This document shows, one piece after another, positions 14,907 to 22,304 of a stretch of DNA of 38,419 bases. The translations under genes and the position numbers were made by a program. Every line of letters begins with the position of its first letter. Within the stretch, counting starts at the first letter, position 1. A model generated the notes under the pieces. The model was not told the DNA's origin and did not search any database. It was given only the letters and a program-made list of their open reading frames with translations. This DNA comes from Armatimonadota bacterium (GTDB lineage: Bacteria; Armatimonadota; Zipacnadia; Zipacnadales; JABUFB01): positions 1 to 38,419 of the forward strand of contig JABUFB010000022.1 in assembly GCA_013314775.1 (NCBI GenBank), given 5' to 3'.

Positions 14907-15122
14907 TCAGATGCCCAGCTTGAGCTGCCCGGTGGGATCCTGGATGAACGCCGGGGTCTCGCGGAACAGGACGCGCTCGGCCTGTTCGCTGCGCTTCCCC
15001 GGATTCCAGGAGGAGACCGGCCGATAGTACCCCATGACTCGCGTCCAGACCTCGCACGGCTGGCGCTCAGATTCCGGGATGTCGGCGATAGTCACGGTTG
15101 CTGCATTTCTGGGTTCGGGCAT
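14907..15122 (-). CDS. Stand-alone glycyl-radical tail of class III ribonucleotide reductase
   Basis: 71 residues. The core CEVWTRVMGYYRPVSSWNPGK (residues 23-43, Gly31 in RVMGY) matches the C-terminal glycyl-radical segment of NrdD proteins of the Thermotoga type. There it normally follows the zinc site in the same chain. The ATG has GAGGAG about 7 nt upstream, overlapping the stop of the upstream nrdD gene, with 11 nt between the stop and start. The frame differs from nrdD. A ~20-residue N-terminal part and a C-terminal ETPAFIQDP tail are additional. It probably supplies the radical glycine in trans, comparable with the spare radical domain YfiD of pyruvate formate-lyase. Not an obvious single-indel frameshift: see nrdD. 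Confidence 0.85.
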   Translation of the reverse strand: MPEPRNAATVTIADIPESERQPCEVWTRVMGYYRPVSSWNPGKRSEQAERVLFRETPAFIQDPTGQLKLGI

Positions 15123-17185: not shown

Positions 17186-17422
17186 GCTCGAACGCCCTCC
17201 CGGGTCCGCGACGAATGCTGGAAAGCGGCTCTGACGCCAGTTTCGCTACTCCACAACAACCAAGGACAGTGGGGGCTGAACTTCCCCCCGCTCGTCAAAT
17301 GCGTGCCGCGTCCGACCTGAGGAGACCGGTCCCACAATCGCCTGCCCGCGATCGGTCAAACGGAGGCCGGCTGGCTTCACCCTCGAAAGCGCCGGGTGTG
17401 GAAGACGCCGCAACTGCGACGC
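17186..17422 (-). other. nrdD leader between riboswitch and start codon
   Basis: About 237 nt of untranslated sequence. It holds a short G/C hairpin (GGGGG 17271-17275 with CCCCC 17284-17289 on the plus strand) and the nrdD ribosome site. One of these could act as the expression platform, but no classical U-tract terminator is seen, so translational control is the likelier mode. Confidence 0.5.
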
Positions 17423-17596
17423 CGCTCGGGCCAGGTATTCGGACTTGCGGGCTGTGCGGTCCGCCTGCGAGCTGGGGAGCTCCGTGCTGTGCCGCCGGGT
17501 TTCCGCTACAGTTCTCGTTCCCGCTCACCGCTGCGGGGCAGTTCCGGTTTTTCACCGGATTCCCTGTGCGAACTCTTTGGGAGTCCACCGCGAGCG
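17423..17596 (-). ncRNA. Cobalamin (AdoCbl/B12) riboswitch upstream of nrdD
   Basis: On the minus strand the order of conserved elements is that of the cobalamin aptamer. It begins with GGTGGACTCCC near 17589, then AGGGAATCCGGTGAAAAACC, ACTGCCCCGCAGCGGTGAGCGGG, and finally the B12-box-like GTCCGAATACCTGGCC (17429-17444). P1 is closed by CGCTCG (17591-17596) with CGAGCG (17423-17428). The element sits entirely between a good promoter and nrdD. Known function of the family: B12 binding represses the downstream gene. Here it would switch off a B12-independent reductase when B12 allows another class to work. Confidence 0.92.
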
Positions 17597-17602
17597 AGAG
17601 TA

Positions 17603-17631
17603 AGCTTAGAGGGATGACGCCCTTTTGTCAA
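17603..17631 (-). promoter_or_regulatory. Sigma-70 promoter of the riboswitch-nrdD unit
   Basis: Perfect -35 TTGACA (plus-strand 17626-17631), 17-nt spacer, -10 TAAGCT (17603-17608). Predicted transcription start near 17596, exactly at the first base of the riboswitch P1 stem. Confidence 0.75.
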
Positions 17632-20132: not shown

Positions 20133-22304
20133 ATGCGCGACCTGGTGCGACAGATCCGCGACGAACTCATGGGGACACCCGACACTGTGTGCCTGGAGCG
20201 CGCCCGTCTGGCAACCGAAGCCTGGCGAGTGCATGAGCATGAGCCGGCGCCGATTCGCCGCGCTCATGTGCTCGCGCACGTCTTGCGCAATATGACCCTC
20301 GACTTACGCTCCAACCCTGTCTTCGCCGGGAACACTTCGGCGCGCCCGCGGGCTTGGATGCTTCTGCCGGAGTACGGCATCGGAATGGATCCACAGGTCT
20401 TGCTGGAGCACTCCCAGCTTGCCGGGTTGCTTGATGGTGCGATCCCCGATGAGATTGCAGAGTTCTGGCGTGACCGTGCTTTCGGTGGGCAGACGGGAAT
20501 CGGACACCTTTCGGTTGATATGGACTGCGTGGTCCACCGGGGGCTGCAGGACTTGATTGCGGAGTGTGACCGCCTGGCGGACGAAGGTGATGAGGAGCAA
20601 CGGGTATATCGTGCGGCAATGCGAATTGCCCTGCAGGCCGTGATCGACTGGGCGCACCGTTACGCAAGGGCAGCACGTATCGAGGCGCTCTCAGAAAACG
20701 ATCCGTTGCGTCGTGAGTGCCTGGAACGGGTGGGGAGCGCCTGCGAACAAGTACCGGAGAAGCCTGCCAGGAACCTGTTCGAAGCTCTCCAGAGCATGGC
20801 GCTGGTGCACTTGGCGATCCATATCGAGGGCCACGGGATGTCGGTCTCTACGGGTCTGCCTGACAGGGTCCTTGCACCCTTCATCCAGCACGACTTCGAC
20901 CCCGAGCAGGTCACAAACCTGATCGCTGCGTTCATGCTGAAGATCACCGCGAACTCCCTGTATGGGCGAGGGTACCTGTCGCAGACCATCACCGTAGGTG
21001 GAGCGGATCATCTCGGCATTGACCGATCAAATGCGCTGACTGCCTGCTTCCTCGATGCCTGCGATCGGCTGAGGGTGGGCGATCCTCCGGTATTCCTGCG
21101 GTGGCACCCGGGGCTGGATCCCAAGATCAAGGCGATGGCCGCACGCATGCTGGCCGACGGGGTGACCATGCCCCTGCTGATCAATGACATTCCTACTGTA
21201 GCGGGGTTTGAAGGAGCGGGAGTCGCTCCACAGGATGCGTGGGAGTACGCCGTCATCGGGTGCAATGAGTTGGGCATCCCGGGGCGAAGCGCGGATTCGG
21301 CCACCGCGACATGCGGCAACATCCAGTATCTCGGACTCCTCAACGAGACCCTCGCTTGGCTAGACAATCCGGATGCCGTCTTGGGGATGGATCAGCTTCT
21401 TCAGAGGCTGGAGGGATTGATGAGAGACCGGCTGAGCGCCATGCGGCGCAACGGCCTCGCGCACAAGGCGCGTACGGCGCGGGAAATGCCCACGCCTTTG
21501 ACTTCTTCGCTGATGCGCGGGTGTATCCGGCGCGGCAAGGACATGGCGGTGGGGATGGACTACCACTTGCCGGGGGTCTATGAGCGCGGGCTGACCAATG
21601 CCGCCAACGCACTGGCGGCCATCGAGGAGCTTGTCTTCGACCGGCGTGAACTGCGATTGTCCGAACTCACCGCTGCGCTTGGGGCGAACCATGCTGAGGA
21701 GGGACTGCGCGCGCGTATGGCTGCCGCTCCGAAGTGGGGGAATGGTGACGACCGCGCAGACAGGTGGGCCCTCGCGCTCGTGGAAATGCGGGAGCGGGTA
21801 CTCGACGCAATCGATGCGGAGCACGGCAGCCCCGCCCACATGGTCTGTCACGTAGTGCGCAGCCTGCACCATCTCGACGGAGCGCGCATCGGCGCTTCGG
21901 CGGACGGCCGTAAGGCAGGCACTCCGGTGGCCGACAGCATCGGCGCGGCCGTGGGAACGGCACGGTCAGGCCCGACAGGCATCCTGCGCAGCGTCCTCAA
22001 ACTGGACCCGTCCCGCACCCACCGGGGCGGCTACAACCTGAACCTGACGCTACCCGGGGGCAGAGTGAGTGAGGATGAAGTGCTTGCGCTGATCGAAACG
22101 TTCTTCGATGAAGGCGGGCAGGAACTGCAGATCAGTTCGCTTGACCCCTTACGCCTTCGTCAGGCCCAGCAGAACCCCGGGGCCCACGGCGATCTGGTTG
22201 TGCGCATTGCCGGCTTCTCCGGTCGCTTCGTGGACCTGTCGAAGCTGGAGCAGGACGAGCTCATAGCCCGGGCCGAAGCGGCGGCGGGGGTCCCATCCGG
22301 ATAG
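20133..22304 (+). CDS. Glycyl-radical enzyme (PFL-like superfamily), substrate unknown
   Basis: 723 residues. The C-terminal radical motif is RIAGFSGRFVDLSKLEQDELIAR with the radical Gly at 694 (family RVxGYxAxFxxL). The active-site Cys is residue 377 in VIGCNELGIP, with Glu379 two residues on. The CxE arrangement is that of the dehydratase/lyase branch; pyruvate formate-lyase instead has two adjacent Cys. Length is slightly shorter than the typical ~760-800. It would use a thiyl radical made from the glycyl radical and needs an activase, which is not in the window. Preceded by the Cys-rich protein (114 nt gap with a hairpin at 20073-20099). ATG 20133 is used with GAGGA 11 nt upstream. Confidence 0.92.
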   Translation: MRDLVRQIRDELMGTPDTVCLERARLATEAWRVHEHEPAPIRRAHVLAHVLRNMTLDLRSNPVFAGNTSARPRAWMLLPEYGIGMDPQVLLEHSQLAGLLDGAIPDEIAEFWRDRAFGGQTGIGHLSVDMDCVVHRGLQDLIAECDRLADEGDEEQRVYRAAMRIALQAVIDWAHRYARAARIEALSENDPLRRECLERVGSACEQVPEKPARNLFEALQSMALVHLAIHIEGHGMSVSTGLPDRVLAPFIQHDFDPEQVTNLIAAFMLKITANSLYGRGYLSQTITVGGADHLGIDRSNALTACFLDACDRLRVGDPPVFLRWHPGLDPKIKAMAARMLADGVTMPLLINDIPTVAGFEGAGVAPQDAWEYAVIGCNELGIPGRSADSATATCGNIQYLGLLNETLAWLDNPDAVLGMDQLLQRLEGLMRDRLSAMRRNGLAHKARTAREMPTPLTSSLMRGCIRRGKDMAVGMDYHLPGVYERGLTNAANALAAIEELVFDRRELRLSELTAALGANHAEEGLRARMAAAPKWGNGDDRADRWALALVEMRERVLDAIDAEHGSPAHMVCHVVRSLHHLDGARIGASADGRKAGTPVADSIGAAVGTARSGPTGILRSVLKLDPSRTHRGGYNLNLTLPGGRVSEDEVLALIETFFDEGGQELQISSLDPLRLRQAQQNPGAHGDLVVRIAGFSGRFVDLSKLEQDELIARAEAAAGVPSG

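Follow-up and report, generated by a model that had tools for sequence, protein, structure and literature searches.

The oxygen properties of the ribonucleotide reductase (RNR) classes are well established. In Streptomyces, as Borovok reportedly described in 2006 (cited in PMC8620254), a coenzyme B12 riboswitch acts on the class Ia nrdABS operon, placing a B12-independent reductase under cobalamin control beside a B12-dependent one. Cobalamin control also extends to class III enzymes: a 2004 study reported B12 elements ahead of nrdDG from Desulfovibrio (D. vulgaris) and Desulfuromonas (PMC545781), and control of nrdDG was described in Propionibacterium acnes (PMC3848588) and Chlorobium (PMC8620254). 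A B12-dependent nrdJ was also reported in the systems of PMC545781 and PMC3848588, and the same isozyme switching was proposed. Cupriavidus H16 requires nrdDG to grow anaerobically on nitrate; added cobalamin overcomes this growth defect, an effect ascribed by the authors to NrdJ (PMC2864759).

RNRs made of two pieces are known from Pseudomonas aeruginosa, where NrdJa and NrdJb are two polypeptides from one operon, described in 2015 as the only split RNR in a non-viral organism (PMC4520616). A small stand-alone protein bearing a glycyl-radical loop is exemplified by YfiD/Y06I (GrcA), which completes a large enzyme by repairing PFL chains that are whole except for their cleavage by oxygen; spare-part repair for glycyl-radical enzymes other than PFL was raised as an open question in the same work (PMC8683613).

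Here, we analyse a 38,419-nt stretch of DNA (the window) from the genome of an uncultured Armatimonadota bacterium, in which a cobalamin riboswitch precedes a B12-independent class III reductase gene, as in D. vulgaris, Desulfuromonas, P. acnes and Chlorobium. A B12 riboswitch on nrdD beside nrdJ is already published, and the Armatimonadota case extends this known arrangement; it differs from the published nrdDG systems in its split nrdD, its unlinked nrdG and the lack of a class I enzyme in the genome. The first-pass annotation had set the locus against Streptomyces. The distinction itself stands, the window's NrdD being an oxygen-sensitive class III enzyme whereas nrdABS encodes an oxygen-dependent class I enzyme, but the implied novelty does not, because class III nrdDG control had been described in the three studies cited above. 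The two-part class III enzyme is the less familiar and more unusual element of the locus.

RESULTS

A full-length cobalamin riboswitch precedes nrdD

A cmscan search of the window returned a single Rfam match, to the cobalamin riboswitch family RF00174 (Table 1). The score of 63.7 bits lies well above the gathering score of 31.5 bits, and the alignment extends over the full model of 189 positions, and its core segments are intact. The covariance search that the first-pass annotation had proposed as a check is thus highly significant, and both its recognition of every conserved aptamer segment and its placement of P1 are borne out: on the minus strand, 17596-17591 (CGCTCG) and 17428-17423 (CGAGCG) form a perfect 6-bp helix. 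A B12-box variant, CCGAAnACC, is common to loci L012, L017, L027 and L052. The aptamer lies in the 5′ leader of a B12-independent isozyme gene, 227 nt upstream of the nrdD start codon on the same strand, with nrdJ elsewhere in the genome; nrdD is the first gene after it.

Table 1. Features of the riboswitch-nrdD locus, in window coordinates
Feature	Position	Strand	Evidence
Promoter -35 hexamer TTGACA	17626..17631	-	single TTGACA-N(16-18)-TAAGCT match in the window (17631-17603)
Promoter -10 hexamer TAAGCT, weak (3 of 6)	17603..17608	-	pattern match and comparison with relatives
Cobalamin riboswitch aptamer, RF00174, full length	17413..17607	-	63.7 bits, E=1.2e-13, model 1-189; retained ahead of nrdD in related genera
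B12-box region of aptamer, GCCCGCAAGTCCGAATACCTGGC	17430..17452	-	aligned to conserved 3′ segment of RF00174
Leader, aptamer to start codon (candidate expression platform)	17186..17412	-	no intrinsic terminator found in leader
nrdD large part: 683-aa class III ribonucleoside-triphosphate reductase chain with ATP-cone and NRDD barrel, lacking the glycyl-radical loop	15134..17185	-	NF006126, PF13597, PF03477
nrdD small part: 71-aa ORF, glycyl-radical motif RVMGYYRP, own Shine-Dalgarno	14907..15122	-	PF13597 positions 531-562, E=2.7e-9; separate ORF in relatives too

The riboswitch has a conserved promoter

The 5′ edge of the aptamer is overlapped by the TTGACA-N17-TAAGCT promoter named in the first-pass annotation. 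This pattern, searched with spacers of 16-18 nt, occurs once in the window, with 0.01 matches expected in shuffled sequence, and places the predicted transcription start close to 17596, at the base of P1. A generic promoter scan did not report it. In all 11 nrdD riboswitch loci tested, TTGAC[A/T] is found 22-25 nt ahead of the start of the aptamer model, and 10 of the 11 also have a plausible -10 element at 16-18 nt spacing, giving a promoter of sigma-70 type at a matching distance from the aptamer; the -10 position in relatives reads TAAGGT, TATAAG, TATACT or TATAAT. Because both elements are conserved in position across these loci, we regard the nrdD riboswitch promoter as credible. A search with a strict core pattern, which gives weak evidence, found no NrdR boxes at these nrdD loci.

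The class III reductase is encoded in two parts

The large chain belongs to the class III NrdD family and contains the NRDD barrel (NF006126, 1113 bits, cut-off 548; TIGR02487, 476 bits, cut-off 326; PF13597, 588 bits), together with a PF03477 domain. Its match to PF13597 stops at position 531 of 562, and the chain ends after the zinc site. The RVxGY motif expected in the C-terminal region of this chain is instead found on the small ORF, which begins 11 nt past the nrdD stop codon, so that the split enzyme proposed in the first-pass annotation is confirmed at the level of the reading frames. The two ORFs jointly span the whole PF13597 model, and it is the pair, not the large chain alone, that has the complete features of the family. 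No match to a solved structure was found for the small part. Because the gene after the small ORF is convergent, the riboswitch-nrdD transcript is predicted to be bicistronic.

The small NrdD part resembles YfiD in being a separate loop protein proposed to complete a large enzyme. However, it matches only the NRDD family and not the PFL-type Gly_radical family of YfiD, and its partner is not an intact enzyme: YfiD repairs an otherwise complete PFL, whereas the NrdD loop exists only on the small protein. The likeness to NrdJa/NrdJb is limited in a similar way, since class and split site differ and in the class III split the small part is the radical-bearing loop itself. The closest counterpart is nrdD-nrdD'-nrdG on pHG1 of Cupriavidus necator H16, whose NrdD is 70.7% identical and is followed by the same separate small CDS (66 aa, RefSeq); there, nrdG comes directly next in the operon, whereas in the window it is unlinked.

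The NrdD split is widespread

Among 95 NrdD homologues, 71 are split and 11 fused, so that the split accounts for 71 of the 82 scorable loci; the other 13 were scored neither way, and in some of these the contig stops short of the small ORF, or the pattern missed it. Split loci include Pseudomonas and Cupriavidus pHG1 as well as 12 loci of the order to which the source genome belongs. All three reading frames relative to the large ORF are represented among the small ORFs, the gap between the two ranges from -41 to 298 nt, and in 64 of 72 cases a ribosome-binding site precedes the small ORF, which makes separate translation, and not frameshifting, most likely. In RefSeq, the small piece is a CDS of its own in Cupriavidus, Sulfuricystis and Bradyrhizobium, and on several plasmids it is named 'anaerobic ribonucleoside-triphosphate reductase'.

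On a quick tree of the NrdD homologues, the state changes between split and fused at least four times. A more distant NrdD from another genome of the same class (L026, genome G045) falls among the fused forms outside the main clade and yet carries the radical loop on an ORF of its own, and splitting has therefore probably arisen more than once. No description of a split NrdD was found in the literature searched, a limited set without subscription papers, which is not proof of novelty. At the Pseudomonas and Stutzerimonas loci L091, L092, L094, L095, L099, L100 and L112, nrdD is likewise split; the class II enzyme of Pseudomonas is split as well (PMC4520616).

Other RNR and B12 genes of the genome

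The source genome comprises 6.12 Mb in 37 contigs and is 98.5% complete. The search for a class II reductase elsewhere in the genome, also proposed as a check by the first-pass annotation, found one NrdJ above the curated cut-off (NF006417, 1193 bits, cut-off 961; contig C6). The genome encodes one NrdD and, unlinked to it, one NrdG2 (TIGR02495, 208 bits, cut-off 131; contig C8), which provides the radical-SAM activase that accompanies a class III enzyme; the class I beta subunit NrdB was not found in the genome. The adenosyltransferase BtuR is present, and searches of the genome did not detect a PduO-type adenosyltransferase or the de novo B12 synthesis proteins CobS and CbiC. On the simplest reading, the organism would import B12 and possess two RNRs, a B12-dependent one that works whether or not oxygen is present and a B12-independent one restricted to anoxic conditions, and it is predicted to rely on scavenged B12 for its sole oxygen-tolerant RNR, NrdJ.

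Linkage of riboswitch and nrdD is recurrent

Related genomes with a full nrdD match number 18, and all of them encode NrdJ. In eight of these, as in the window, a riboswitch precedes nrdD (9 of 19 loci), ahead of split and fused forms alike. Seven further genera of the order have both promoter and aptamer ahead of nrdD; a genome of the same family (G002) retains the riboswitch at 77 bits with an NrdD only 80% identical to that of the window, and a public Candidatus Zipacnadia genome (Armatimonadota; L041) has the same arrangement. Beyond the Armatimonadota, nrdD has the riboswitch ahead of it in Desulfovibrio, an actinobacterium and Propionivibrio, and most proteobacterial nrdD loci scanned showed none.

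The remaining 10 of the 18 related nrdD genes have no detectable riboswitch despite the presence of NrdJ, although the upstream region is short or cut in some, and a relaxed Rfam search of these riboswitch-less relatives revealed no hidden aptamer. Six loci of one family (L014, L015, L019, L020, L021 and L023) lack the aptamer core but retain, about 300-200 nt ahead of nrdD, a TTGACT...TATAAG promoter and the beginning of the leader, similar to those of the riboswitch-bearing loci L016, L018 and L022. This pattern suggests that B12 control was lost secondarily and repeatedly while the promoter stayed in place. In a further genome, from the genus of the source genome and 85% complete (G001), NrdJ is present and nrdD has no match, through either real loss or an assembly gap.

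A model for B12 control of the two-part enzyme

We propose, with a probability of roughly 0.85, that the two genes, which encode a class III RNR in two pieces, form an operon repressed by a riboswitch of the adenosylcobalamin type that has a promoter of its own. Adenosylcobalamin as the ligand and repression as its effect are expected from the riboswitch family and isozyme logic, and the two NrdD parts are presumed to assemble. With an ample supply of imported, adenosylated B12, the aptamer would bind it and nrdD expression would fall, and dNTPs would come from the class II NrdJ. When B12 is scarce, the leader would be permissive and both NrdD parts would be made; the unlinked NrdG2 would then install the radical on the small part, allowing B12-independent dNTP synthesis under anoxia. 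The model is supported by the aptamer score and the position-conserved promoter, by the linkage across genera, by NrdJ in all 18 relatives, by the presence of NrdJ, NrdG2 and BtuR with no NrdB, CobS or CbiC detected, and by the physiology of Cupriavidus H16. It is weakened by the 10 of 18 related nrdD genes without a detectable riboswitch, by a score below that of the best copy in the genome, and by the fact that no expression platform was found.

Alternative explanations

Of the three cobalamin riboswitches in the genome two are full-length, of which the nrdD copy has the lower score (63.7 versus 97.4 bits), and the six leaders that have kept promoter and leader start without the aptamer core show that loss occurs in the order. 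The aptamer might accordingly be a decaying remnant, recognisable to the covariance model and no longer controlling nrdD. We consider this unlikely, since all 189 model positions are matched with an intact core at twice the gathering cut-off, and G002 retains the riboswitch despite the divergence of its NrdD. Less probable still is a sequencing or frameshift artefact, or an nrdD pseudogene that would leave nothing functional to regulate. Since a class III enzyme would be inactive without its radical loop, gene breakage is a reasonable first assumption, but the same break recurs at 12 loci of the order and at 71 of 82 scorable homologous loci, and the variable gaps, the three relative frames, the small ORF's own ribosome-binding sites and its separate annotation in RefSeq led us to reject this reading.

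Terminator-like hairpins with U-runs lie downstream of both other cobalamin riboswitches of the genome, the nrdD start codon is further from the aptamer than in many translational riboswitches, and Rho action is compatible with the sequence. The same switch might thus act by transcription termination, Rho-dependent or at an unrecognised terminator, and not at translation, a possibility that deserves weight without being the one we expect. Against it, no G+C-rich hairpin with a U-run was found in the window's nrdD leader, and the leaders of eight other nrdD genes contained a single weak candidate. Because no intrinsic terminator was found in the window's leader, control at translation or via Rho is favoured over intrinsic termination. 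A Shine-Dalgarno sequence, GGGAGG, lies 10 nt ahead of the nrdD ATG. Sequestration of the ribosome site, computed for eight loci, followed no consistent pattern among them; leader folding revealed no consistent switch.

A possible exchangeable glycyl-radical carrier

Repression by adenosylcobalamin in the Armatimonadota locus would extend B12 control of anaerobic DNA-precursor synthesis to this phylum, and the locus highlights a class III RNR that is common and whose radical-bearing loop is made as a small protein of its own. Cleavage of such enzymes by oxygen occurs at the glycine. Tentatively, and with more doubt than conviction, we suggest that a widespread, little-described class III RNR consists of two proteins, a catalytic subunit and an exchangeable glycyl-radical carrier of ~60-70 aa, of which only the carrier would need replacing after air exposure because that is where oxygen cuts, and that in Armatimonadota it stands under a B12 riboswitch. 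A spare-part role for the small NrdD part, by its likeness to YfiD (PMC8683613), is speculation; the natural two-part NrdD makes the spare-part question directly testable.

Other glycyl-radical and riboswitch loci of the genome

A PFL-like glycyl-radical enzyme (PF02901, PF01228) is encoded at 20133-22304 (+) of the window, on the strand opposite to nrdD and ~3 kb away from it. The strongest cobalamin riboswitch of the genome (97.4 bits; L001:1501-1700 (-), contig C1:165147-165346) is followed by its terminator-like hairpin and then by a pseudopilin-like gene (N-methylation motif, DUF1559 and H-X9-DG domains), an unexpected target. The third (L003:1501-1665 (+), contig C8:394724), a short match to model positions 45-169, lies upstream of a homocysteine S-methyltransferase gene and is followed by the terminator-like hairpin GACCGCTC...GAGCGGTCTTTTT.
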